Below, in pieces: positions 7,389-20,076 of a stretch of DNA of 64,000 nt. The DNA is from Paraburkholderia megapolitana (lineage in GTDB: Bacteria; Pseudomonadota; Gammaproteobacteria; Burkholderiales; Burkholderiaceae): the NCBI RefSeq assembly GCF_007556815.1, contig NZ_CP041743.1, forward strand, positions 2,046,001 to 2,110,000, written 5' to 3'. The notes below the pieces were generated by a model. The model ran no database searches. It was not told where the DNA came from and was given only the letters and a program-made list of their open reading frames with translations. Made by a program: the position numbers and the translations under genes. Each line of letters starts with the position of its first letter. Position 1 is the first letter of the stretch.

Positions 7389-8282
7389 ATGGAAACACGC
7401 AACCTCAAATACTTCCTCGCGATCGCCGATGCGGGCAGCGTGACGCGCGCGGCCGATACGCTCGGCGTCGCGCAGCCGGCGTTGAGCCAGGCGCTGACCC
7501 GCATGGAACGGGACCTCGGTGTCAAGCTGTTCACGCGCACGCGGCGGGGCGCGGCGTTGACACCGGCCGGTCTCGCGATCGTCGACGACGTGCGGCTCAG
7601 CGTCGCGCGTATCGACGCCGCTTCGCACCGCGCCCGCGAAATCGGTGCGCAGCGCGGCGGACGGTTGACGGTGGGTTTTGCATCAGCGGCGCTGTTCGAC
7701 GTGCTGCCGCGCGCGCTGGCGGCGTTGCGCGCCGCGGTGCCGGACGTTGCGCTCGCGCTGCGTGAAATGAGCAACGCGGAGCAGGTGAGTGCGCTCGAGC
7801 GCGGTGAAATCGATATCGGGCTATTGCACACGCCCGTTGCGGTAGGCGGGCGGATGCGGGAGAAGCTGATTGCCCGCGAGCGTCTCGTGGCGGTGCTGCC
7901 CGCTTCGTTTCCGGTCGGGCCGGATGGCCGCGTCACGTTGCAGGAGTTATCGGAGCACGGGCTCGTGTGGTTTCCGCACGAGCAGTTGCCGGTGATACGC
8001 GCCGGTATCCTGAGTGCGTTCCGTCAGGCCGGGCACGAGGCGGAGATCGTGCAGGACGCGAACCGCTCGCTGACCGTGCTGGCCTGCGTAGCCGCGGGTT
8101 GCGGTGTGTCGCTCTTGCCGTATTCGGTGCGCACGCTGCAGTTCAACGGCGTGCGGCTGTGCGAGGTCAGCGACGGCGCGACGCTGCCGCGCTTCGAATT
8201 GAGCGCGGTGTGGCCGCATCGCTCGCGGGCGGCGCTGGCCGACCGCTTCGCGGGGTTGATCGAGCCGCGAGGGCTCGATTAA
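7389..8282 (+). CDS. LysR-family transcriptional regulator
   Basis: A 297-residue regulator. The winged helix-turn-helix is at residues 1-60 (NLKYFLAIADAGSVTRAADTLGVAQPALSQALTRME in pieces), followed by the periplasmic-binding-like effector domain (from about 90, with GLLHTPVAV and the VAAGCGVSLLPYS strand). It reads away from the MFS-amidohydrolase-MFS unit and most likely controls it in response to the transported acid. The start at 7389 is the first Met of the family alignment. The Shine-Dalgarno sequence is weak. Confidence 0.92.
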   Translation: METRNLKYFLAIADAGSVTRAADTLGVAQPALSQALTRMERDLGVKLFTRTRRGAALTPAGLAIVDDVRLSVARIDAASHRAREIGAQRGGRLTVGFASAALFDVLPRALAALRAAVPDVALALREMSNAEQVSALERGEIDIGLLHTPVAVGGRMREKLIARERLVAVLPASFPVGPDGRVTLQELSEHGLVWFPHEQLPVIRAGILSAFRQAGHEAEIVQDANRSLTVLACVAAGCGVSLLPYSVRTLQFNGVRLCEVSDGATLPRFELSAVWPHRSRAALADRFAGLIEPRGLD

Positions 8283-8305
8283 GAAGGGCTCGTCGTGCAG
8301 GCCGC

Positions 8306-9412
8306 TCAGAAAATGCTACGAATCCCGACCCGTCCGACAGCCTGCTTCTGGCTCGAAGACGGATTGAACCCGGCGATCTGCGCCACGGTCGCATCGCCGG
8401 CGGCTTTCTGGAACACGCCCAGCGCATACACGGACGTGCGCTTCGATAGCGCGTATTCGACGGTGAGATTGAACTGGCTGTATTTCGGCTCGCCATCGCT
8501 CGCATGATCGCGACCGGTCGTATAGGTATAGCCCGCGCCGATCGTCACCGCCGATGTCGGGTTGTAGATTCCCGACAGTTCGTAGTTCTGGAACGTCGCA
8601 TCGTGACCGGCGCTGCCCTGCTGGAAGATCGTGTTCGTGAAATCGGCGAGCAGACGCAGGGAAGTCAGGACACGGTACGACGCGCCGACGCCGAACACCT
8701 TCTGCGCGCGCGCGTTGGCGAGGAAGTTGCCGTACACCGCGTTGGTGAAGCCCGGGTAGTTCTGATAGCCCTGGGTCGACACTTCCGGATCGTTGATGCG
8801 CAGATAGCCAATCCCCGCGCTGAACGCACCGATCGAGTACGTGCCGCCCGCGCTGTACACCGCGTTGTTCGAGAACTGGCCGGCGATGCCACCCGGTGCA
8901 TACAGTCCGCCGAACGTGAAGCCCGCGATGGTCGGGCTGCGGTACTTGATCGCACTCGAGATCGGGAAGCCGTTATCGGTGTTGTCCATGTCGTTCGGGT
9001 GCGCGAAGTAATAGCCGCCGATGTTGCCGTTCAGCGTATACGGCTCGACATAGTCGACGATCGAATCCCACTGACGCCCGAGCGTCACAGTACCGACCTG
9101 TTCGCTCTGGATACCGACGTACGCATTACGCGAAAACGCGAGGCCGCTGCCGAGGCGCCCCGAATTGATGTCGAAGCCGCTTTCGAGGCGAAAGATCGTG
9201 CTGAGCCCGCCGCCCAGATCTTCGGTGCCGCGTACGCCCCAGCGGCTGCCCGCGGTGACGCCCGAGGCCGTCTGGACCAGATGGCTGCCATTGACATTGC
9301 TGGCAAAATCCACACCGTCCTCCACGATGCCGTACAGTGTGACGGCGCTTTGGGCATGCGCCGCGCATGCGGCAACGAGGAACGGGGCCGCGACGGCGAG
9401 TGTCTTTTTCAT
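8306..9412 (-). CDS. Outer-membrane porin, Gram-negative porin (OmpC-like) family
   Basis: A 368-residue trimeric-porin family protein. It has a Sec signal peptide ending in AHAQ (about residue 21), the family opening SAVTLYGIVEDGV, GVRGTEDLGGGLSTIFRLESGF, a GRQWDS loop, and the terminal phenylalanine (RSIF) that BAM recognises. It allows diffusion of small hydrophilic solutes. The 3' end faces the LysR gene 23 bases away. It probably has its own promoter in 9413-9550. Confidence 0.94.
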   Translation of the reverse strand: MKKTLAVAAPFLVAACAAHAQSAVTLYGIVEDGVDFASNVNGSHLVQTASGVTAGSRWGVRGTEDLGGGLSTIFRLESGFDINSGRLGSGLAFSRNAYVGIQSEQVGTVTLGRQWDSIVDYVEPYTLNGNIGGYYFAHPNDMDNTDNGFPISSAIKYRSPTIAGFTFGGLYAPGGIAGQFSNNAVYSAGGTYSIGAFSAGIGYLRINDPEVSTQGYQNYPGFTNAVYGNFLANARAQKVFGVGASYRVLTSLRLLADFTNTIFQQGSAGHDATFQNYELSGIYNPTSAVTIGAGYTYTTGRDHASDGEPKYSQFNLTVEYALSKRTSVYALGVFQKAAGDATVAQIAGFNPSSSQKQAVGRVGIRSIF

Positions 9413-9745
9413 CGATAATCCGTTGTGATTGTTTGTGGTTGTTCTAGGGTTGTTCTTGACCTCGGCGGATTATCGTGGCACCAATTTGACTTGCAAACCA
9501 CATAGATCTGAAATGCTTTCTAGTTTTACGCCGGGTAGATCGATGGGTACCGTTTGCAGCCGCAACCATTTGGAAATCTGAATTTGTTGGTTTGCGCCGC
9601 ATCCCACCCTCGCTATTCTGCGCAGCTACTGCAGCCGATTGTCTGTCGCGTGGACAGTGCGCGCGCCCGTTGTCCCCGGGTCGTCGCTGCATCGCAGGCA
9701 CCGGCTGCCCATACGAAACTTCCACTCGCTGGAGCGACGGTACCG
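9413..9745. other. Intergenic region between porin and ABC importer
   Basis: 333 bases separate divergent genes. The part next to 9412 is T/G-rich and should hold the leftward porin promoter. The right part can be read in frame with the ABC binding protein but lacks a signal peptide or other protein features, so I treat it as leader DNA. No hairpin or repeat stands out. Confidence 0.5.
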
Positions 9746-10663
9746 ATGAAATACACCCCCACCCTCAAGGGCGTTGCAGCGCTGCTTCTACTGGCCTCGA
9801 TCGGGGCGCATGCCGCCGACACTGTCACGGTCGCATCGAAGATCGATACCGAAGGCAATCTGTTAGGCAATCTGATCGCGCAGGTGCTGAAGTCGCACGG
9901 CATCGCCGTCACCGACAAGATCGGCCTAGGCACTACGCCGATCGTGCGCAAGGCCATCACGACCGGCGAGATCGATATCTATCCGGAGTACACGGGCAAC
10001 GCGGCGTTCTTCTTCAACAAGGGCGACGATCCGCTGTGGAAAAACGCTGCGAAGGGTTATGAAGAAGCGGCGAAGCTCGATTACGCGGCCAATCACATCG
10101 TCTGGCTTGCGCCGGCGCCGGCGAACAACACGTGGGCGGTTGCGCTGCTCGGCACCGTAGCGAAGGCCAACAATATTCATACGTTTAGCGACTTTGGCAA
10201 ATGGGTGTCGGCGGGCGGTCAGGTGAAGCTCGCGGCATCGGCTGAATTCGTGAACAGCGTGGGCGCGTTGCCGTCGTTCGAGAAGACCTACGGTTTCACG
10301 CTGAAACCGGATCAACTGCTCGTGCTGTCGGGCGGCGACACGTCGGCAACGATCAAGGCGGCCGCCGAACAGACCGACAAGGTTAACGCGGCAATGGTCT
10401 ACGGCACGGACGGCGCGATCGAAGCAGCCGGTCTCGTGGTACTCGACGACAACCGTCATGTGCAACCCGTCTACGCCCCCGCACCGCTGATCCGCGAGGC
10501 GGTGCTGAAGGCGCATCCGGAGATCGCCGGGTATCTGAAGCCGGTGTTCGCGAGCCTCGACCTGAAGACGCTGCAAACGCTGAATGGCCGTATCCAGGTG
10601 AACGGCGAACCGGCCGCGGCGGTGGCGGCGAGCTATCTGAAAGCGAAAGGCTTCGTCAAGTAA
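9746..10663 (+). CDS. osmF: Glycine-betaine/choline-type ABC substrate-binding protein (OsmF/YehZ family)
   Basis: A 305-residue periplasmic solute receptor of the OpuAC/OsmF family. The signal peptide ends near GAHA (residue 23). The mature part begins ADTVTVASKIDTEGNLLGN and has the family features GLGTTPIVRKAITTGEIDIYPEYTG and a late VNAAMVYGTDGAI segment. An ATG 9746 start gives a proper signal peptide; the frame stays open upstream without one. It is the first of four genes in the order receptor-permease-ATPase-permease, matching yehZYXW of enterobacteria. YehZ-type receptors bind betaine weakly, so betaine is a family-based guess. Confidence 0.9.
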   Translation: MKYTPTLKGVAALLLLASIGAHAADTVTVASKIDTEGNLLGNLIAQVLKSHGIAVTDKIGLGTTPIVRKAITTGEIDIYPEYTGNAAFFFNKGDDPLWKNAAKGYEEAAKLDYAANHIVWLAPAPANNTWAVALLGTVAKANNIHTFSDFGKWVSAGGQVKLAASAEFVNSVGALPSFEKTYGFTLKPDQLLVLSGGDTSATIKAAAEQTDKVNAAMVYGTDGAIEAAGLVVLDDNRHVQPVYAPAPLIREAVLKAHPEIAGYLKPVFASLDLKTLQTLNGRIQVNGEPAAAVAASYLKAKGFVK

Positions 10664-11898
10664 TGGCGGGCCCGGGAGGCAACGTGCAGACGCATAAATC
10701 GCAGGCGCTTGCGTTTGCCGGGCGACGTACCACTGGCGGCACGCTGCTGGTCGACAAGGTCGATCGGGTCGGTGCGCTGATCGCGATACTGATCGCCGCA
10801 GCGCTCGCGTTCGAACCGTTCGTCACGTTTCGCGCGAACCGGATCGTGTCGGGCAAAGGGCTCAGTCTGCTCGACACCTTTAGCGTCGGCGAGGCGAGGG
10901 TTGCGGTTGCGGTGCTCGCGGCTGCCGCGTTGTTCGCGCTGCTGCGTAGCCGTGCCGCGTTACGGCTCGTGGTCGGCATCGCGCTGCTGGCAGGGCTCGC
11001 CTTGCTGGTCGGATACGCGCCCGCGCATCTCGTCACCGACGAACATCCGCTCGCCCGTGTGTCGCCGTCAGGCGGCTTCTGGATCCTCACGTTCGCGTTC
11101 TCGATGCTGGTCACCGACGCGCTCGCGAAACTGTCGCCCGGTCCCGCACCGCGTCTCGCGGTGCTCGCGCTCGCATGGCTCGCGCTCGCTGCGCTGTTCG
11201 GTAGCGGCCGATGGGACGGCCTGTCGGTGATGCAGGAATACGCGGTGCACGCGGACAACTTCTGGCAGGAAGCTGCGCGCCACATCGAGCTGGTTGTGGG
11301 CTCCGTTGCGGCGGCTGTCGCGTTTGGCGTGCCGCTTGGTATCGCGTGCGTGAAACTGCCTGCGCTGCGTGCGGTCGCATTGCCGGTGCTGAACATTGTC
11401 CAGACCATTCCGAGCATCGCGATGTACGGGCTGATGATGGTGCCGCTCGGGCTGCTCGCCGCCCACGTGCCGCTTGCCGCCGCACTCGGTATTCGCGGTA
11501 TCGGCGTTGCGCCTGCGTTGATCGCGCTGTTTCTCTATTCGCTGCTGCCGGTGACGGCGAGTGTCGTCGTCGGTCTCGGGCAGATTCCGCCGCAGACGGC
11601 GGAAGCCGCCGTCGCGATGGGTATGACACCGGGTCAGCGTCTGCGCTCGGTCGAACTGCCGCTCGCGTTGCCGGTCGTGCTGACCGGCGTGCGCATCGTG
11701 CTGGTTCAGAACATCGGACTCGCAACCGTCGCCGCGCTGATCGGCGGTGGCGGCTTCGGCACCTTCGTGTTTCAGGGCATCGGCCAGTCGGCCATCGATC
11801 TCGTGCTGCTCGGCGCCGCCCCGACTATCGGGCTTGCACTGAGCGCGGCCGTTGTCTTCGACGCCGCGACCGAATTCATCAAGGGACATCGCGCATGA
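10663..11898 (+). CDS. yehY: ABC importer permease (YehY type, long form)
   Basis: A 411-residue inner-membrane permease. An N-terminal half of several hydrophobic segments precedes a conventional binding-protein-dependent permease domain (about 200-400) with the EAA-loop region (QTAEAAVAMGMTPGQRLRSVELPLALPV). YehY-type permeases carry this extra N-terminal part. ATG 10663 overlaps the receptor stop (TAATG). A GTG at 10684 behind GGGAGG is an alternative start that would shorten it by seven residues. The stop overlaps the ATPase start. Confidence 0.9.
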   Translation: MAGPGGNVQTHKSQALAFAGRRTTGGTLLVDKVDRVGALIAILIAAALAFEPFVTFRANRIVSGKGLSLLDTFSVGEARVAVAVLAAAALFALLRSRAALRLVVGIALLAGLALLVGYAPAHLVTDEHPLARVSPSGGFWILTFAFSMLVTDALAKLSPGPAPRLAVLALAWLALAALFGSGRWDGLSVMQEYAVHADNFWQEAARHIELVVGSVAAAVAFGVPLGIACVKLPALRAVALPVLNIVQTIPSIAMYGLMMVPLGLLAAHVPLAAALGIRGIGVAPALIALFLYSLLPVTASVVVGLGQIPPQTAEAAVAMGMTPGQRLRSVELPLALPVVLTGVRIVLVQNIGLATVAALIGGGGFGTFVFQGIGQSAIDLVLLGAAPTIGLALSAAVVFDAATEFIKGHRA

Positions 11899-12833
11899 TT
11901 GAAATCGACAAGATCAGTCGACGCTTCGGCGATGTCGTCGCTGTCGACGACGTTTCGCTCGTGATCGGCAGCGGCACGATCACCGCGCTCGTCGGCACAT
12001 CGGGCAGCGGCAAGTCGACGCTGCTGCGCATGATCAACCGGTTGATCGCGCCGACGAGCGGCACGATCCGCATCGATGGACGCGATACGTCCGGCGTGCC
12101 CGCTGAAGAGTTGCGGCGCGGCATCGGTTATGTGATCCAGGGGCACGGGCTGTTTCCGCACTGGAGCGTCGCTCGCAATATCGCGACCGTGCCGCGTCTG
12201 CTCGGCTGGGAGACGGCACGCATCGACGCACGCGTGCGCGAACTGCTTGAGCTCTTCAAGCTCGATCCCGATACGTACGGTACGAAGTTTCCGCATCAGT
12301 TGTCCGGCGGTCAGCAGCAGCGGGTGGGTGTAGCGCGTGCACTGGCTGCGCAACCCGCGATCCTGCTGATGGACGAACCGTTCGGCGCGCTCGATCCGAT
12401 CATCCGCGGCCAGGCGCAGGAGGATCTGCTCGCGCTGCAGCGGCGACTCGGCATCACGGTGGTGATCGTCACGCACGATATGGAAGAGGCATTGCTCCTC
12501 GGCGATCGCATCGTGGTGATGGACGGCGGCCGCGTGCTACAGGCTGCCACGCCCGCCGAATTGCTCGCACGTCCCGCACCTGGCTTCGTCGAGAAACTCG
12601 TGGCCGGTACCGACCGGCCGCTGCGTTTGCTGTCGCTGACCCAGGTCGATGAAATCGCCGAACCCGGTACCGCCGATGGCGCGCCGATCGCCGGTACGCA
12701 GAACCTGCGCGATGCGCTGTCGGAACTGCTGTGGCGCGGTACGCAGAGCCTGCCGGTAGCACAGGCCGACGGCAGCGTGCGAACCCGCGTATCGCTCGCG
12801 TCGATTCTCGCGCGCGCCGGGCGGCCGAGATGA
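11895..12833 (+). CDS. yehX: ABC importer ATPase (YehX/ProV-like)
   Basis: A 312-residue nucleotide-binding subunit. Walker A is GTSGSGKST, the Q-loop is VIQGHGLFPH, the signature is LSGGQQQRVGVARAL, Walker B is ILLMDEPFGALD, and the switch His is in VTHDMEEA. After about residue 235 there is a short regulatory tail with partial similarity to a single CBS-like segment (ending TRVSLASILAR), shorter than the tandem CBS of ProV/OpuCA. ATG 11895 overlaps the upstream stop by four bases. The long open frame upstream of this ATG is the shadow of the permease gene. Confidence 0.93.
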   Translation: MIEIDKISRRFGDVVAVDDVSLVIGSGTITALVGTSGSGKSTLLRMINRLIAPTSGTIRIDGRDTSGVPAEELRRGIGYVIQGHGLFPHWSVARNIATVPRLLGWETARIDARVRELLELFKLDPDTYGTKFPHQLSGGQQQRVGVARALAAQPAILLMDEPFGALDPIIRGQAQEDLLALQRRLGITVVIVTHDMEEALLLGDRIVVMDGGRVLQAATPAELLARPAPGFVEKLVAGTDRPLRLLSLTQVDEIAEPGTADGAPIAGTQNLRDALSELLWRGTQSLPVAQADGSVRTRVSLASILARAGRPR

Positions 12834-13597
12834 AACTCGTCGCACGGACCTCGCGCCTGCTCGCGCTCGCGATACTGCTCGCGTTACTGGTTCGCCCGCA
12901 ATGGTTTGCGCCGCTCTTCGCGCCGCTCGCCGAGAACGGCGCACCTGTGATCTACGATCGCTCGAGCCTGCTTGGATTGACGCTTGCGCATCTTGCGCTG
13001 GTCGGCGGCGCGAGTCTCGTGGGGACCGTGATCGCGCTGCTCGCCGGGATCTTCGTCACGCGTGAAGCGGGCGCCGAATTTCTGCCGCTTGCGCGCAGCA
13101 TCGTCAATATCGGCCAGACTTTTCCGCCGGTTGCGGTGCTGGCGCTCGCGGTGCCCGCGGTCGGTTTCGGTGTGAAGCCGACGCTGATTGCGCTGATCCT
13201 GTACGGATTGCTGCCGGTGTTCGAGAGCACGATTACCGGTCTCAAGGACATTCCGGCTGCAACCGTCGAAGCCGCACGTGGCATGGGCATGGGTCCGCTG
13301 CGCCAGTTGCTGTCGATCGAACTGCCGCTCGCGCTGCCGGTGATCCTGTCGGGCATCCGTCTGTCGGTGGTGATCAATCTCGGCACCGCGACGCTCGGTT
13401 CGACGGTGGCAGCGAAAGGACTCGGCGATGTGATCATCGCGGGTCTGCAAACCTCGAACACGGCGTTCATCCTGCAAGGCGGGATGATCGTCGGGCTGCT
13501 GGCCGTGCTTGCCTACGACGCGCTCGGCGTCGTTGCGCGTGCGCTCACACAACGCGACTCGGGCGCGACGCTCGCGTTACCGCGCCTCGAGCGCTGA
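12830..13597 (+). CDS. yehW: ABC importer permease (YehW/OpuCB type)
   Basis: A 255-residue inner-membrane permease with about six hydrophobic segments and the coupling EAA loop (ATVEAARGMGMGPLRQLLSIELPLALPV). ATG 12830 overlaps the ATPase stop by four bases (ATGA), completing a four-gene chain with no gaps. It pairs with the 10663 permease to form a heteromeric pore. Confidence 0.92.
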   Translation: MKLVARTSRLLALAILLALLVRPQWFAPLFAPLAENGAPVIYDRSSLLGLTLAHLALVGGASLVGTVIALLAGIFVTREAGAEFLPLARSIVNIGQTFPPVAVLALAVPAVGFGVKPTLIALILYGLLPVFESTITGLKDIPAATVEAARGMGMGPLRQLLSIELPLALPVILSGIRLSVVINLGTATLGSTVAAKGLGDVIIAGLQTSNTAFILQGGMIVGLLAVLAYDALGVVARALTQRDSGATLALPRLER

Positions 13598-13793
13598 ACG
13601 GCGCTTACCTCACTTTCCTCGCTTACCTCACTCGCCGCGCGCGATTTGTCAGCCGCGCTGATAAACATCGAAGAATTCGTTTGTTCCCGATGCGGTGGGC
13701 TTCCCGTATCGTTCAGCCGGCGTCGAACGAACTGATCCCGGCGGGTTCGGCGCTCTGTCTACACGCACGGGTCTCGCATAGCAAGGAACGACG

Positions 13794-13997
13794 ATGGCAA
13801 CGGGTACGGTGAAGTGGTTCAACGATGCAAAAGGATTCGGCTTCATCACGCCGGACGACGGCGGCGACGATCTGTTCGCGCATTTCTCGGAAATCCGCGC
13901 GGACGGCTTCAAGTCGCTGCAGGAAAACCAGAAGGTCAGCTTCGAAGTGAAACAAGGCCCGAAGGGCAAGCAGGCCGCCGATATCAAGCCGGTGTAA
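13794..13997 (+). CDS. Cold-shock domain protein (CspA family)
   Basis: A 67-residue single-domain RNA chaperone with both nucleic-acid-binding motifs: KGFGFI (RNP1) and DLFAHF (RNP2). It opens with the family sequence [15 protein letters not shown] lies about ten bases before the ATG. The nearly 200-base stretch after the ABC operon probably includes its own promoter and a long leader, as is common for csp genes; I see no defined thermosensor fold. Genomes of this group carry several paralogues, so no specific letter is assigned. Confidence 0.95.
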
Positions 13998-14214
13998 CCG
14001 CCACGCGTTTGTCGCCTTCAACCACTATCTTCTGACGAATGCCCATGCATGCCCATGTGGCGACCAAACCGCTGCTTCTTTAGAAAGCACAATTAATTGG
14101 TTCGCCTTCCGGCCGGGTTATTTCATAGTGTCTCGTGATGGCTATAGACGGTTTTTTACCGCCTCGCCAGCCCCCGCCGCACTGACGCGCGCGGATATTC
14201 GGCAAGGAGATGTC

Positions 14215-14691
14215 ATGACGGTTGAAGTCGAAGAGCGGCCTGTGCACGCGGCACTCGATGTGCTTGAAGCGGCGCGATTGGCTGCGGTAGAAGCAGGTTT
14301 GCCCTATGCAGGCGGCATCGCGCCGCAGGACGCGTGGGCGCTGGTGTCGGCAGGCAAGGCGCTGCTGGTCGACGTGCGCAGCGCGGAAGAACGGAAATTC
14401 GTCGGGCATGTGCCGGAGAGCCTGCACGTCGCATGGGCGACGGGCACGAGCCTGACACGCAATCCGCGCTTCGTGCGCGAACTGGAAGCGAAGACCGGCA
14501 AGGATGCGCTCGTGCTGCTGCTGTGCCGTAGCGGCAATCGTTCGGCGCTCGCCGCCGAAGCTGCGACGAAGGGCGGTTTCAGCCAGGTCTTCAATGTTCT
14601 GGAAGGCTTTGAAGGCGAACTCGATGCGGCGCAACGGCGCGGCGGCAGTAACGGGTGGCGCTTTCGCGGGCTGCCCTGGGTGCAGGACTAG
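14215..14691 (+). CDS. Rhodanese-like sulfurtransferase
   Basis: A 158-residue single-domain rhodanese that would carry a persulfide on Cys104 in the active-site loop LLLCRSGNRS. LLVDVRSAEERKFVGHVPES is the typical first-strand motif. ATG 14215 follows AAGGAGA at the right distance; the open frame continues upstream without a site. It is the first gene of the encapsulin locus, 36 bases before the serine acetyltransferase. Rhodaneses are regular neighbours of cysteine-desulfurase-loaded encapsulins and may pass on or receive sulfane sulfur. Confidence 0.92.
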   Translation: MTVEVEERPVHAALDVLEAARLAAVEAGLPYAGGIAPQDAWALVSAGKALLVDVRSAEERKFVGHVPESLHVAWATGTSLTRNPRFVRELEAKTGKDALVLLLCRSGNRSALAAEAATKGGFSQVFNVLEGFEGELDAAQRRGGSNGWRFRGLPWVQD

Positions 14692-14727
14692 CGCTTTTCA
14701 CTTACACACTTTCAGCCGGGAGCCGCT

Positions 14728-15705
14728 GTGGCAGTTTTCGATATCGACGACATCGTAGAAGCACTGCAGACGGCTCGCCAGCAATGGCGCGAAGTACAGA
14801 AGCGCTCGCTCGAGCCGGGCGGGCGCGAATTGCCGGCTCGCGAAGCACTCGCGGAGATCGTCGATACGCTCAAGGGCGTGTTGTTTCCGATGCGGCTTGG
14901 GCCAGCCGATCTGCGTCAGGAAAGTGAAAACTTCTATGTCGGGCATGCGCTCGATACCGCGCTGCATGCGTTACTCGCGCAGGCGCGACTCGAATTGCAT
15001 TACCGGACCCGCCACCACCCACGTTCCGCCGACGAAATCGAAGCGCAAGCCGGCGCGGCTGTCAGGGCGTTTGCGGCAAAGCTGCCGGAGATCCGCACGC
15101 TGCTCGACAGCGATGTGCTCGCTGCATTTCACGGCGACCCCGCGGCAGGTAGCGTCGACGAGGTGCTGCTGTGCTATCCCGGCGTGCTGGCGATGATCCA
15201 TCATCGTTTCGCGCATGCGCTATATGGGCTTGGTTTGCCGTTGCTTGCGCGTATCGTCGCCGAGCTGGCGCATGGCGAAACCGGCATCGATATTCATCCG
15301 GGGGCGCAGATCGGCGCGAGCTTCTTCATCGATCACGGCACCGGTGTCGTGATCGGCGAGACCTCGGTGATCGGGCAACGGGTGCGTGTTTATCAGGCGG
15401 TTACGCTCGGGGCGAAGAGGTTTCCGCGTGACGCTCAGGGGCACCTCGAAAAAGGTTTGCCGCGCCATCCGATCGTCGAGGATGACGTCGTGATCTATGC
15501 CGGTGCGACGATACTTGGGCGCGTGACGCTGGGGCGCGGTGCGGTGATCGGCGGCAACGTCTGGCTTACGCAGGATGTCGCGCCTGGCTCGCATGTCACT
15601 CAGGCGGTGTCGCGCAACGAAGCGACGAGTGCGGGTGTGGGTGCAGGTGCGGCACATGCTAATCCGGCGCCACAATCAGCTGCAGTAGCCGGAGTCGCGT
15701 CGTGA
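14728..15705 (+). CDS. Serine O-acetyltransferase (CysE/EpsC-SrpH type)
   Basis: A 325-residue enzyme that acetylates L-serine to O-acetylserine, the direct precursor of cysteine. An alpha-helical N-terminal part (1-180) precedes the left-handed beta-helix with hexapeptide repeats (GIDIHPGAQIG...FFIDHGTGVVIGETSVIG), including the catalytic His in IDHGTG (H203). The start is GTG 14728 behind CCGGGAG. The low-complexity Ala/Gly tail (from about 300) is unusual and overlaps the next gene (GTGA). It supplies cysteine, the substrate of the encapsulated desulfurase encoded downstream. Confidence 0.93.
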   Translation: MAVFDIDDIVEALQTARQQWREVQKRSLEPGGRELPAREALAEIVDTLKGVLFPMRLGPADLRQESENFYVGHALDTALHALLAQARLELHYRTRHHPRSADEIEAQAGAAVRAFAAKLPEIRTLLDSDVLAAFHGDPAAGSVDEVLLCYPGVLAMIHHRFAHALYGLGLPLLARIVAELAHGETGIDIHPGAQIGASFFIDHGTGVVIGETSVIGQRVRVYQAVTLGAKRFPRDAQGHLEKGLPRHPIVEDDVVIYAGATILGRVTLGRGAVIGGNVWLTQDVAPGSHVTQAVSRNEATSAGVGAGAAHANPAPQSAAVAGVAS

Positions 15706-16022
15706 CGAAGATCGTGCGAGACCTCGGCGTGACAGTGCGACGCCTGCGTGAAGCACGCGGCTGGTCGCAGGAACAACTGGCTGAGCATGCCGCGCTGAAT
15801 CGTTCGTATGTCGGCGAGATCGAGCGCGGTTCGGTGATCGCGTCGATCGTCACTGTCGAGAAACTTGCACAGGCGCTCGATGCAAGCATCGCGGTGCTGT
15901 TATGCGCAGCGTCGGCGGATTCTCCGCGAAGCGTGAGCCCAGCGGTGGTGCCCGTTAGCTCCGGCAAAGCCACTGCGTCATCCACATCGAATACTCCCAC
16001 CGCCCCAAACGTACCCGCGTGA
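15702..16022 (+). CDS. XRE-family helix-turn-helix regulator of the encapsulin locus
   Basis: A 106-residue DNA-binding protein. Residues 5-65 are a Cro/C1-type helix-turn-helix (VRRLREARGWSQEQLAE...NRSYVGEIERG). The last 40 residues are a Ser/Thr/Ala/Pro-rich tail of unknown role. GTG 15702 overlaps the acetyltransferase stop by four bases, so it is co-translated within the locus, directly upstream of the shell gene. It is likely a local regulator of the sulfur/encapsulin genes. Its operator is not identified; 16023-16117 is the obvious candidate. Confidence 0.88.
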   Translation: MTKIVRDLGVTVRRLREARGWSQEQLAEHAALNRSYVGEIERGSVIASIVTVEKLAQALDASIAVLLCAASADSPRSVSPAVVPVSSGKATASSTSNTPTAPNVPA

Positions 16023-16117
16023 CGTCTATAGCATGTTGAGCGGCTGCGACGCCGTTTCCATAATCACGTTTGCTCATAAGCATTCCAGTTTTTCTTCTAT
16101 AGACCCCGGAGCGACAC

Positions 16118-17050
16118 ATGACAGCAACAGTGGGCGGCCTGACGGCGCTCGGCGATACCGCAGCACGGCAACTAGCCAATGCCACCAAGACCGTTCCCCA
16201 GCTTTCGACGATTTCGCCGCGCTGGCTCACCCATCTGCTGCAATGGCTGCCGGTCGAAGCGGGTATCTACCGGCTGAACCAGGTGAAGAATCCGGAAGCA
16301 GTGGTCGCGGCTTGCACCGCGCGCGAAGACGAAAGCCTGCTGCCGCGCACGTTCGTTCCTTACGAAGAAGAACCGCGCGAGTATTTCCTGAACGCGGTGA
16401 GCACCGTACTCGATGTGCATACGCGCATCTCCGATCTGTACAGCAGCCCGCACGACCAGATCAAGGAACAACTGCGCCTGACGATCGAAACGATCAAGGA
16501 GCTGCAGGAAAGCCAACTGATCAACAACCCCGATTACGGCCTGCTTGCCAACGTCGCCGAAGAACAGCGCGTGTTTCCGCTGACGGGCGCACCGACCCCC
16601 GACGACCTCGACGAACTGCTGACAAAGGTCTGGAAAGAGCCGGCATTCTTCCTGACGCACCCGCTCGCGATTGCCGCGTTCGGTCGTGAATGCACGCGCC
16701 GCGGTGTGCCGCCGCCCACGACGAGCCTGTTCGGTTCGCAGTTCCTGACCTGGCGCGGCATCCCGCTGATTCCGTCGGACAAGGTGCCGGTCGCGGACGG
16801 CAAGACGAAGATCCTGCTGCTGCGCGTGGGCGACAAACGCCAGGGCGTGGTCGGCCTGTTCCAGCCGGGTGTTGCTGGCGAACAGGGACCGGGTCTGTCG
16901 GTGCGCTTCATGGGCATCAACAATCATGCGATCGCGTCGTATCTGATCTCGCTGTACTGCTCGCTGGCCGTGCATTCGCCGGACGCGCTGGCGGTTCTCG
17001 ATGACGTGGAGATCGGCAAGTACCATGACTACACCGACACCTACAAGTAA
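16118..17050 (+). CDS. Family 2A encapsulin shell protein (SrpI-like)
   Basis: A 310-residue HK97-fold shell protein. Recognised by overall resemblance to the SrpI / major membrane protein I group: the N-terminal arm with LGDTAARQLANATKT, ISPRWLTHLLQWLPVEAGIYRLNQVK, and a C-terminal SVRFMGINNHAIASYLISLYCSLAVHSPDALAVLDDVEIG in pieces. No cyclic-nucleotide-binding insertion is present, which separates 2A from 2B. Subunits should assemble into an icosahedral cage around the cysteine desulfurase encoded next. GGAG precedes the ATG by six bases. Its stop lies inside the downstream gene if that gene starts at 17025. Confidence 0.93.
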   Translation: MTATVGGLTALGDTAARQLANATKTVPQLSTISPRWLTHLLQWLPVEAGIYRLNQVKNPEAVVAACTAREDESLLPRTFVPYEEEPREYFLNAVSTVLDVHTRISDLYSSPHDQIKEQLRLTIETIKELQESQLINNPDYGLLANVAEEQRVFPLTGAPTPDDLDELLTKVWKEPAFFLTHPLAIAAFGRECTRRGVPPPTTSLFGSQFLTWRGIPLIPSDKVPVADGKTKILLLRVGDKRQGVVGLFQPGVAGEQGPGLSVRFMGINNHAIASYLISLYCSLAVHSPDALAVLDDVEIGKYHDYTDTYK

Positions 17051-19085
17051 GCACATGGACAGCGCCCTGCCGCTCGATGTGCCTGCTGGTCCGCCGCCGG
17101 GGTTGCCCGATCCGTCGACACTCGCGCAACTTGCCAACGCGTTCTTCTCGGCATTGCCTGGTGAGGCATTGCCGGTGGCGCGCAGCGGTGCCGTGAGTGG
17201 TGTGCCGGGTACGGCGGGCGCGTTGCCGCTCGCCGCTCCCGTGCTCGCGGAAGCGAGCAACCCTGTGCCGGCCGGCTCGCCGCTCGCGGGTCCTGGCGGC
17301 GCCGGTACCGGCGTGCCTGGTGCCGCGATTCCGCAAGGGCAGGTGGCGGGCGCGAACCTGCTGCCTGCTGCGCCGACGCATGTGCTGTCGCTCGGTCATC
17401 GGGCGCCGGCGCTTGCACCGCATGCCGCTGCGCAGAACGGTTTGCCCGATAACGTGGTGACGGTGGCGCCTGCGCTCGATCCGCGGTTTGGCGGTGCTGC
17501 GCTGGGTGTGCCGGAAGGGGTGGGGGCGCAGCGTCCGTCGGCGGGTGGGGCCTCTGTTCCGTCTTCGCCATCGGCTCCATCGCCGTATTACTTTCTGGAC
17601 GGTTCGAGCGATCACCGGTCTGCGGCCGGTGCGACACCCGACATCGTCGTGCCGGGCTGGACCAGCGTGAGCGCGCAGTCGTTTGGTTTGCCCGGTGCCG
17701 ATGAACCTTTGACGACGTCGCGTTTTCCTTACGACGTTGGCTCCGCGGGTGCATCGAGCGGTAGCACTTCGCGCTACTTCATCGACGATGCGGCGCAGGC
17801 GCCGGCTTCCGGACAACCCGCGAAAGCCGGCGGCGCCATTCCGGCTGTCGGCCCGTCGAGCCATCCGCCGTTCGACGTCAACGCCGTACGACGCGATTTT
17901 CCGATCCTGCAGGAGCGCGTCAACGGACGTCAGCTCGTGTGGTTCGACAACGCCGCGACGACGCACAAGCCGCAGTCGGTGATCGACCGGCTTTCGTACT
18001 TCTATGCACACGAGAACTCCAACATCCATCGCGCGGCACACGCACTGGCAGGTCGCGCGACGGATGCCTACGAGGCGGCGCGCAGCAAGGTGCAGCGCTT
18101 CATCGGCGCGTCGTCGCCGGACGAGATCATCTTCGTGCGCGGCACCACTGAAGCGATCAACCTGATCGCCAAGACGTGGGGCGTGAAGCATGTCGGCGAG
18201 GGTGACGAGATCATCGTGTCGCATCTCGAGCATCACGCGAACATCGTGCCGTGGCAGCAGCTTGCCGCGCAAACCGGCGCGACATTGCGTGTGATTCCGG
18301 TCGACGATACCGGCCAGGTGCTGCTCGAAGAATATCGGCGACTGCTTAGCGATCGCACGAAGATCGTGTCGGTGACGCAGGTATCGAATGCGCTCGGTAC
18401 GGTGGTGCCGGTCAAGGAGATCGTCGAACTCGCGCATCGTGCGGGCGCGAAAGCGCTGGTCGACGGGGCGCAGTCGGTGTCGCATATGCGGGTCGATGTG
18501 CAGGCCATCGATGCGGACTTCTTCGTGTTCTCCGGCCACAAGGTGTTTGGGCCGACCGGTATCGGCGTGGTCTACGGCAAGCGTGCGATTCTCGAAGACA
18601 TGCCGCCCTGGCAAGGTGGCGGCAACATGATCGCGGACGTGACGTTCGAGCGCACGGTGTTCCAGCCGCCGCCCGGACGCTTTGAGGCCGGCACCGGCAA
18701 TATCGCGGATGCAGTCGGCCTCGGTGCGGCGATCGACTACGTGACGCGCGTGGGCATCGAGAACATCGCGCGCTACGAACACGATCTGCTTGCGTACGCA
18801 ACGAGCGTGCTGGCGCCCGTGCCTGGGGTGCGGTTGATCGGTACCGCGCGCGACAAGGCGAGTGTGCTGTCGTTCGTGCTGAAGGGCTACGAGACGGAAG
18901 AGGTTGGCAGCGCGTTGAACGAAGAGGGCATCGCGGTGCGCTCGGGTCATCACTGTGCGCAACCTATCCTGCGGCGCTTCGGTGTTGAAGCGACCGTGCG
19001 GCCTTCGCTCGCGTTCTACAACACGTGCGATGAAGTCGACCGGATGGTGTCGGTGGTGAAGAAGCTCGCTTCGCGGCGCTACTGA
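17025..19085 (+). CDS. Encapsulin cargo cysteine desulfurase (SufS-like) with long disordered N-terminal domain
   Basis: A 686-residue PLP enzyme that converts cysteine to alanine and sulfane sulfur. Residues 283-686 are a complete SufS-type class V aminotransferase: FDNAATTHKP, the PLP lysine K506 in FSGHKVFGPTG, and the catalytic C644 in RSGHHCAQP. Residues 1-282 are Pro/Ala/Gly/Ser-rich, predicted disordered, with conserved-looking islands (STLAQLANAFFSALPGE near 30, YYFLDG at 188, RYFIDD at 251). Such extensions load this enzyme into family 2A encapsulins. ATG 17025 overlaps the shell gene by 26 bases; ATG 17055 is the alternative, and neither has a strong Shine-Dalgarno sequence. Confidence 0.94.
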   Translation: MTTPTPTSKHMDSALPLDVPAGPPPGLPDPSTLAQLANAFFSALPGEALPVARSGAVSGVPGTAGALPLAAPVLAEASNPVPAGSPLAGPGGAGTGVPGAAIPQGQVAGANLLPAAPTHVLSLGHRAPALAPHAAAQNGLPDNVVTVAPALDPRFGGAALGVPEGVGAQRPSAGGASVPSSPSAPSPYYFLDGSSDHRSAAGATPDIVVPGWTSVSAQSFGLPGADEPLTTSRFPYDVGSAGASSGSTSRYFIDDAAQAPASGQPAKAGGAIPAVGPSSHPPFDVNAVRRDFPILQERVNGRQLVWFDNAATTHKPQSVIDRLSYFYAHENSNIHRAAHALAGRATDAYEAARSKVQRFIGASSPDEIIFVRGTTEAINLIAKTWGVKHVGEGDEIIVSHLEHHANIVPWQQLAAQTGATLRVIPVDDTGQVLLEEYRRLLSDRTKIVSVTQVSNALGTVVPVKEIVELAHRAGAKALVDGAQSVSHMRVDVQAIDADFFVFSGHKVFGPTGIGVVYGKRAILEDMPPWQGGGNMIADVTFERTVFQPPPGRFEAGTGNIADAVGLGAAIDYVTRVGIENIARYEHDLLAYATSVLAPVPGVRLIGTARDKASVLSFVLKGYETEEVGSALNEEGIAVRSGHHCAQPILRRFGVEATVRPSLAFYNTCDEVDRMVSVVKKLASRRY

Positions 19086-19113
19086 CCGCAGGTATCGGGA
19101 AGAGGAAGCGTAG

Positions 19114-19157
19114 GCGTCGTGCGAACGGATTTCGGTCTGTTCGCGCGACGCTTTTTT
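19114..19157 (+). terminator. Rho-independent terminator of the encapsulin locus
   Basis: A 13-bp stem, GCGTCGTGCGAAC paired with GTTCGCGCGACGC (one G-U pair), has a 12-base loop and is followed by six T residues (19152-19157). It lies 29 bases after the desulfurase stop and touches the stop codon of the convergent AraC gene. Confidence 0.88.
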
Positions 19158-19983
19158 ATTGTGCGTCGTGGTTTGCTTCGTTCATCGCCTCAGGTCCGTC
19201 ACCGGACGTTTGAGCCGCGAAATAACGCGCCGGCGTGACACCGAGCGCGCGACGAAACATCGCGATGAATGCGCTGACATTGTCGTAACCCAGATCGATG
19301 GCAACGCGCGTCACGGCTGTGCCGGCAGCTAGCATTTCGAGCGCACGCATCAGGCGTGCGCGCTGCCGCCATTCGGCGAAACTAAAACCCGTTTCCGTGA
19401 TGAAACGCCGCGACAGCGTGCGTGGTGCGATTGCGGCCCACTGCGCCCATTCTTCGAGGCGACGGTTGTCGGCGAGATTTTTCGCAAGCGCATTGGCAAT
19501 GCGTATGAGCCGCGCGTCGCGAGGCATCGGCAGACCGAACTGCTCGCGCGGCAGCGAGCGGATTTCATCGATGATCACACCGGCGATGCGCATCTGCGTT
19601 TCGTCGAGTGCGCCGTCGCTCCAGGTGGCCGCGCGGCTGATCGCGGCGCGCAACAGGAGCGACATCGGGAGGGTGCAGGGCTCGTCCGGCAGCGCCCTGC
19701 ACGCGGCGGCTGCGACGTACACGCTCCACCCCGAGAACGGTCCATGCGATTGCATTGAGTGCGCGAGATCCGGCGGAATCCACACCGCATGCGTGGCGGG
19801 CACGACCCACTGGCTATGCTCGGTACCCACCGACAGGAGCCCGGTTATCGCGCCGAACAGTTGTCCGCGCGCGTGACGATGCGTAGCAGTCACGCGCGTG
19901 TCGTCACCCGTCAGCTCGACCGCGTAGATCGGTGGGCCGTCGGTTGCTTCGAGTTGAACAAAAGGGAGCAGGGGAGCTGACAT
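19156..19983 (-). CDS. AraC-family regulator with cupin sensor domain
   Basis: A 275-residue regulator. The N-terminal cupin-like domain (residues 10-110, with HRHARGQLFGAITG and WVVPATHAVWIPPDLAHSM) precedes two helix-turn-helix motifs (about 180-265: WAQWAAIAPRTLSRRFITETGFSFAEWRQRARL in pieces and VAIDLGYDNVSAFIAMFRRALGVTPARYF in pieces). The start at 19983 (MSAPLLPF) matches the family's usual N-terminus; the open frame extends upstream without similarity. It is divergent from the small gene at 20077. Its target is unknown. Confidence 0.9.
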   Translation of the reverse strand: MSAPLLPFVQLEATDGPPIYAVELTGDDTRVTATHRHARGQLFGAITGLLSVGTEHSQWVVPATHAVWIPPDLAHSMQSHGPFSGWSVYVAAAACRALPDEPCTLPMSLLLRAAISRAATWSDGALDETQMRIAGVIIDEIRSLPREQFGLPMPRDARLIRIANALAKNLADNRRLEEWAQWAAIAPRTLSRRFITETGFSFAEWRQRARLMRALEMLAAGTAVTRVAIDLGYDNVSAFIAMFRRALGVTPARYFAAQTSGDGPEAMNEANHDAQ

Positions 19984-20076
19984 GGCGCGAATGACGTATC
20001 GAATGGCCTTTATACCGCAGCCGATCCGCGTGCGCCAATCTACAGTGGGAAGCCTCAACCACCACAGGAGTACGCG

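Follow-up and report, generated by a model that had tools for sequence, protein, structure and literature searches.

When, and why, do cells build sulfur encapsulins? This question is raised by a run of five genes of Paraburkholderia megapolitana (assembly GCF_007556815.1, a 7.6 Mb genome in three contigs), which lies in a stretch of 64,000 nucleotides of contig NZ_CP041743.1 (positions 2,046,001 to 2,110,000; hereafter the window, in which all coordinates are counted). The genes, placed on one strand by a first-pass annotation of the window and indeed all found on the + strand at 14215-19085, encode a rhodanese, a serine O-acetyltransferase (SAT), an XRE-family regulator, a family 2A encapsulin shell, and its cargo cysteine desulfurase. 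The answer here proposed, which we hold to be fairly probable on the basis of sequence comparisons, is that the locus consists of two transcription units coupled through a small switch, the XRE protein, with a start set by sulfur limitation and with the XRE protein predicted to bind a palindrome at each of the two promoters.

The organization of the run was first considered. The first-pass annotation described a single run in which most joins overlap, but only one of the four joins clearly does so, that of the SAT and XRE genes, by 4 nt. The rhodanese and SAT genes are separated by 36 nt, the XRE and shell genes by 95 nt, and the shell and cargo genes by 4 nt if the cargo starts at the ATG at 17055, or they overlap by 50 nt if it starts at the ATG at 17001. 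Because the 95-nt gap contains a promoter-like site (TTGAGC, 17 nt, CATAAT; 16036-16064, + strand), retrieved by a consensus scan that gave two such sites in the region against 1.1 expected, a single transcript is doubtful, and the locus probably comprises two transcription units, rhodanese-SAT-XRE and then shell-cargo. Reading all five genes as one operon from the rhodanese promoter, with the XRE protein merely tuning that promoter and the internal one weak or unused, would fit the shared strand, the short gaps, the lack of a terminator between the XRE and shell genes in a terminator scan of the region, and the closeness of SAT and shell genes in relatives devoid of the XRE gene (e.g., L053-L057). 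Nonetheless, such an arrangement is improbable considering the fixed -35/-10 geometry before the shell gene, the constraint on an ATA codon, and the separation of both halves on different contigs in genome G146, all of them detailed below.

The XRE regulator (15702-16022, + strand) contains HTH_31 (PF13560) and HTH_3 (PF01381) domains and is related to the controller (C) proteins of restriction-modification systems, C.BclI and C.AhdI being its best solved relatives by sequence, by profile, and by Foldseek with a predicted model (pLDDT, the predicted local distance difference test, of 80.4). Its helix-turn-helix is near-invariant and its tail variable. The protein lacks a sensor domain, and no cysteine column rises above 17 of 92 sequences, which leaves no conserved cysteine and led to the rejection of a cysteine-based sensor. 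The gene is surrounded in the run by sulfur and encapsulin genes, and its product is not classed here as a C protein because restriction-modification genes and paired operators are both absent. In a plasmid collection it matches five records at E 1e-10, one of them being a five-gene cassette of Variovorax and another carrying no annotation.

A palindrome round TATA (16027-16030) is found at 16023-16034 (+ strand), directly after the XRE stop codon and beside the -35 element of the shell promoter, and it is regarded as a putative site for activation by the XRE protein. Its conservation was evaluated in 120 loci, namely the best 80 of 587 relatives in a scan of named genomes plus 40 others, with some genomes represented twice. 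CTATAG is present in 106 of the 120 160-nt regions upstream of the shell gene, compared with 247 occurrences in 1.71 Mb of the same loci, and, once the window is added, 111/121 upstream regions have the palindrome, or a GATAG variant of it, exactly 4 nt before the TTG of the -35 element. This fixed gap is informative because the pattern, written after viewing the loci, allowed for 2-8 nt. Downstream of the palindrome, the spacer from the -35 to the best -10 element measures 17 nt (80 cases) or 18 nt (31 cases). When identical upstream regions of the 120 loci are counted only once, the palindrome is retained in 100/110.

The site and the XRE gene also go together, since 105 of these loci have both, 10 neither, four the XRE gene only, and one the site only (95, 10, 4, and 1, respectively, for distinct upstream regions); the four loci with the XRE gene only each have GCGATAGC. 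In the site-only genome, G146, rhodanese-SAT-XRE is located on another contig, with neither CTATAG nor a shell gene within 1.5 kb after the XRE gene; therefore, the switch would act in trans there. Were the XRE protein a passenger and the palindrome the target of a different regulator, candidates would be available among the other, distant XRE-type proteins encoded in the same genome. We find this very unlikely, in view of the co-occurrence of site and gene, also in trans in G146, of best XRE matches of at most 43% identity in five XRE-less genomes (G024, G113, G129, G042, and G111), and of the TATA-centered form of the site, which fits the closest relatives of the protein as they are presented in the passages cited from PMC4041747.

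Additional indication comes from the end of the XRE gene itself. In 22 of 102 distinct XRE genes the site overlaps the coding end, being then read as Ala-Ile-Ala-(Cys, Gly or Ser)-stop, and in 79/102 it lies 5-139 nt after the stop codon (L070 is not matched by the expression). The Ile codon is ATA in all 22 overlapping genes, versus 15 of 1376 Ile codons in neighboring genes of the same loci; although related loci do not count as independent cases, constraint on the protein does not by itself account for this choice of ATA.

The search was extended to 299 family genomes, where GNCTATAGCNNGTTGA yields 77 sites, 63 of them at 79-90 bp before a shell gene and 14 elsewhere, and is present at 63 of 75 shell places. 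By genome, pattern and shell coincide in 62, the pattern is alone in 11, the shell is alone in 11, and 215 have neither. Seven of the 14 off-shell places were inspected (L211-L217), with no XRE or shell match at E 1e-3. In the P. megapolitana genome the shell-site pattern has a single occurrence, and GRYGKCTATAGNC has two, against 15 for its reversed control, at the rhodanese gene and at C3:2203393, where none of the genes seen is obviously related to sulfur. A wider XRE regulon was rejected, the shell pattern occurring once in the genome and GRYGKCTATAGNC being rarer than its reversed control. Within the window, CTATAGA appears seven times, relative to a shuffle mean of 1.16 and with 0 of 100 shuffles reaching seven; four of these matches sit at three places in the locus and three elsewhere. 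The shell leader additionally contains TCTATAGAC (16096-16104), an exact inverted copy of 16024-16031 that is kept in some close relatives. A second XRE operator at this position was rejected, 10-mer palindromes with 8 or 10 matching positions being found in 37/111 leaders versus 28/111 shuffled ones.

The rhodanese promoter presents a different disposition. Here the palindrome GATGGCTATAGACGGT (14137-14152, + strand) is situated at the expected start site, after a -10-like hexamer, CATAGT (14124-14129, + strand), whose position is conserved in relatives and which is not among the promoter hits of the consensus scan. Of the regions upstream of rhodanese genes in 114 loci and in the window, 115 in all, 93 have a palindrome like GATGGCTATAGCCATC behind the -10-like hexamer, centered in 90 cases either 8 or 14-16 nt after it; the pattern was fitted by eye, an earlier version having matched 1/115. 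Judged from this placement, the palindrome would be expected to act as a site of repression by the XRE protein.

Such an arrangement recalls C.AhdI, C.BclI, and C.Esp1396I, which share with the present case a small XRE fold and, as far as the putative operators of the window go, TATA-centered palindromes, with one site by the -35 element and another at the start. According to the passages cited, C.Esp1396I dimers are centered on TATA, activate from OL through sigma, and repress at the start-site operator OM (PMC4041747), while the usual C-box is GACTtatAGTC, often with outer TG...CA, and two operators are found in almost all C proteins (PMC3115060). By analogy, the placement of both palindromes follows the OL and OM logic of C.Esp1396I. 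The run nonetheless differs from those systems in the lack of restriction-modification genes and in its single, unpaired putative operators, as well as in that the XRE protein of the window would, as proposed, lower rather than raise expression of its own operon.

Alternatively, the XRE protein might be a plain repressor of both promoters, blocking the polymerase beside the shell -35 element until lifted under sulfur stress. The shell site does abut the -35 element, and most small XRE proteins are repressors. Even so, lambda CI also activates from near -42. The dyad of the shell site is likewise near -42 of the scan-predicted promoter, where OL of C.Esp1396I activates in the text cited from PMC4041747; besides, the sites fall on opposite sides of the -35/-10 core in the two promoters, and the lack of a sensor domain and of a frequent cysteine column leaves release from repression without an account. 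Plain repression is thus considered rather unlikely.

In the two-unit switch that we favor, events would be ordered as follows. Upon sulfur limitation, an activator of the CysB type would turn on rhodanese-SAT-XRE, and O-acetylserine for cysteine synthesis would be made first. CysB may in turn be subject to feedback by the product of SAT. XRE dimers would then accumulate and bind the palindrome by the -35 element of the second promoter, recruiting RNA polymerase for production of shell and desulfurase, and they would also bind the start-site palindrome of the first promoter, shutting down rhodanese-SAT-XRE. Cage building would in this way lag behind the supply of cysteine, and the cage would afterwards load the desulfurase via its disordered extension and gather sulfur from cysteine. 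The regulated sulfur store suggested by the first-pass annotation was right in spirit as far as regulation goes, but the data favor two units governed by a controller-type switch over a single operon; its observation is partly confirmed and its interpretation partly supported.

The start of this sequence is suggested by TTTAGAAAGCACAATTAATTGGTTCG (14079-14104, + strand), located ahead of the rhodanese -35 element and taken as a putative box for a sulfur-limitation activator, for which CysB is the natural candidate. Since a strict pattern of the box retrieved no site of the genome other than that of the rhodanese gene, a weight matrix was built on 31 distinct sequences (loci L031-L051 and L060-L120) and applied to the 80 loci L071-L150, which amount to 2.54 million positions. 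It produced 64 distinct hits above 18, whereas 20 column-shuffled matrices gave 0.15 on average and the reversed matrix 2. By position, 58 of the 64 are rhodanese promoters, many from training loci. The remaining six stand before a sulfate-binding protein gene (L125; sbp) and a sulfonate-binding protein gene (L083; ssuA), both above the family cut-off, a taurine-like ABC ATPase (L097) and a peptide- or nickel-type binding protein (L074), both below cut-off, and an OsmF gene (L071), the sixth being at L105. Among loci outside the training set (L122-L150), 15/29 exceed the background maximum of 10.4 obtained from 248 control windows.

That the box is not a CysB site, and that the locus answers to something besides sulfur limitation, is a real possibility, which we rate somewhat below even. 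A strong near copy of the box (9569-9594, score 32.8 to 35.3) precedes an operon for an OsmF-type ABC transporter of the glycine betaine kind (9746-13597), and the box is weak or absent at 9 of 11 sulfate/sulfonate loci of the same genome. On the contrary, two of the six non-rhodanese hits above 18 precede the sulfate- and sulfonate-binding protein genes mentioned, and the system of Synechococcus elongatus is described, in the passages cited from PMC8049743, as induced by sulfate starvation. The OsmF-type binding protein is also a distant match to the ergothioneine transporter EgtUC, and a glycine betaine type transporter with a sulfur box might import a sulfur-bearing compound. A PF06821 serine hydrolase is found before a sulfate-binding protein gene in the same genome (L220), and hydrolase-like proteins were seen by eye beside shell genes in L052, L058, and L208.

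Several observations weigh against the proposed switch. The loci compared are related and partly redundant, and the site patterns were written after viewing them. There is one putative operator per promoter here, while those of C proteins are mostly paired according to the part of PMC3115060 cited. The reversed GNCTATAGCNNGTTGA control matches many of the 299 genomes too, and because of this the position of the pattern counts and not its occurrence. Neither is TCTATAGA with one mismatch enriched in the window, its 10 matches comparing with a shuffle mean of 5.75 and being reached by 8 of 100 shuffles. A start-site palindrome is lacking in 22 of the 115 rhodanese upstream regions, seven without and 15 with a local XRE gene. 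Regarding the sulfur box, only two of the 11 sulfate/sulfonate loci of the genome (L219-L229) score at least 7, and the best sulfate-binding locus has none; under a first, wider matrix those same two loci scored 11.1 and 18.2. Finally, building a store during sulfur shortage is physiologically puzzling.

The shell and cargo genes themselves belong to family 2A. The shell (16118-17050, + strand) is an SrpI-type protein of 310 amino acids that lacks a cyclic-nucleotide domain and scores 518.5 bits against a cut-off of 380 with NF041162, the NCBI family 2A shell model and thereby the profile comparison called for in the first-pass annotation, and 335.4 bits against 22.8 with PF19307. Nearly its full length, residues 9-306 or more, can be aligned with the solved shells 8t6r (A. 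baumannii), the nearest, and 6x8m (S. elongatus SrpI), and the HK97 fold, whose absence was named beforehand as an outcome contrary to the annotation, is predicted from this homology. The predicted model is too weak by itself (mean pLDDT 48.3, 13 sequences), and with it Foldseek returned seven matches at E ≤0.001, all of them encapsulin shells. The genome contains one shell match, and the protein is 100% identical to the shell of Paraburkholderia acidicola ATCC 31363.

The cargo (17055-19085, alternative start 17001, + strand; PF00266) reaches 948.9 bits with NF041166, the NCBI family 2A cargo model (cut-off 800), as the single match above that cut-off in the genome. From the Met at 17055 it comprises 676 amino acids, with the SufS-type domain beginning near residue 273-277, so that the disordered extension, a putative loading region, has ~270 residues, or ~290 from 17001, close to the ~280 annotated. 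The passages cited from PMC8049743 describe such an extension as required for loading and give the motifs LARLANEFFS and AASPYYFLDG, of which LAQLANAFFS and SPYYFLDG are inexact copies here. A second YYFL-like copy in the extension of the window cargo (17055-17870) is the degenerate SRYFIDD. In 117 distinct cargo extensions, a simple expression for the YYFL motif finds two matches in 31, one in 55, and none in 31.

Among the supply genes, the rhodanese-like sulfurtransferase (14215-14691, + strand) scores 52.9 bits with PF00581 (cut-off 22.2), and its role as sulfur acceptor is a published proposal in the text cited from PMC8346489. The SAT (14728-15705, + strand), whose best solved relative is 3f1x, is of the EpsC type, passing NF041874 (152.1 vs. 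150) and failing the cysE model (161.9 vs. 210.65). It would make O-acetylserine, but no cysteine synthase is seen among the five genes, and only that part of the cysteine supply earlier attributed to the locus is accounted for. A strong terminator was correctly anticipated at the end of the run: at 19112-19153 (+ strand) a 19-pair stem is followed by a T-run, with a fold z-score of -3.59. The terminator scan as a whole gave five sites against 5.0 in shuffles, and what stands out is the long stem of this one. No Rfam model matches at gathering scores across 9000-20000, and an RNA element was rejected for this stretch. A gene for a cold-shock domain protein (13794-13997; PF00313) lies between the OsmF-type transporter and the rhodanese.

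Concerning distribution, the five genes keep order and strand in 72 of the best 80 of 587 relatives, a recurrence beyond chance, and in 101 of the 120 loci; the remaining 8/80 loci lack one to three genes, several of them at contig ends. The genera of the named loci are presumably placed in Burkholderiaceae, Comamonadaceae, and Oxalobacteraceae. A shell match is present in 73/299 family genomes, including a short fragment with stops in G291 (L059), a remnant of 66 residues with 59% identity and two internal stops. The shell cut-off is passed in 5/274 genomes of the class and in 17/398 of the phylum, each count including P. megapolitana itself; four in the phylum pass barely and give split matches, the pattern anticipated for family 2B. 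No local XRE relative is found in 11 of the 120 loci (L042, L052-L058, the fragment L059, L125, and L139). The same holds for 10 of the 13 shell loci taken from farther away, some of which are cut by contig ends. From these absences, the XRE gene seems to have joined a core of SAT, shell, and cargo at a later time. Locus L125 (Paraburkholderia polaris, 8001-15723) is a second shell-cargo pair without rhodanese, SAT, XRE gene, or palindrome, followed by the sulfate-binding protein gene with its sulfur box and, by eye, a SulP-type transporter look-alike. Three shell copies occur in G112 (L050, L051, and L070) and two in P. xenovorans LB400, on chromosomes 2 and 3 (L072 and L076).

The locus itself is of a known kind. 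Both the family 2A identity of shell and cargo and the recurrence of SAT and rhodanese as neighbors, claimed in the first-pass annotation, hold and were already in print (PMC8346489 and PMC8049743); the passages cited from PMC8346489 count 1281 family 2A desulfurase operons, among whose accessory components serine O-acetyltransferases and rhodaneses are enriched most. The SrpI system of S. elongatus (PMC8049743) and the A. baumannii shell 8t6r represent the same shell family, with SufS-type cargo, a disordered N-terminus, and two motifs. As here, SAT and rhodanese genes are near in SrpI-type systems, to which the window locus adds the XRE gene and the putative operators between SAT and shell. 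The same five genes in the same order are already annotated on plasmid 3 of Variovorax sp. PBL-E5, in a record that names shell and cargo as family 2A and the regulator as a 'helix-turn-helix transcriptional regulator'. In loci of the Comamonadaceae type the putative operator overlaps the XRE gene end, whereas in the window it lies just after the stop codon. A literature search gave no paper linking 'encapsulin' with 'XRE family' or 'CysB', and none on the XRE regulator by title or opening of the abstract, subscription papers being outside its scope; the control layer of palindromes and XRE protein looks new.

Taken more broadly, a controller-type switch recruited in Burkholderiales may time the sulfur encapsulin, with supply genes and switch made first and, once the switch has turned these down, shell and desulfurase afterwards, its operator lying inside the switch gene end in several lineages; we regard the chances of this generalization as evenly balanced. 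Should this view of the regulation prove mistaken, what is left is an ordinary locus of a family already catalogued. If the view is correct, the switch would constitute a natural timer for encapsulin production, and the predicted regulator, operators, and order of action make the timing of cage building, and with it the question of when and why cells build sulfur encapsulins, directly testable.

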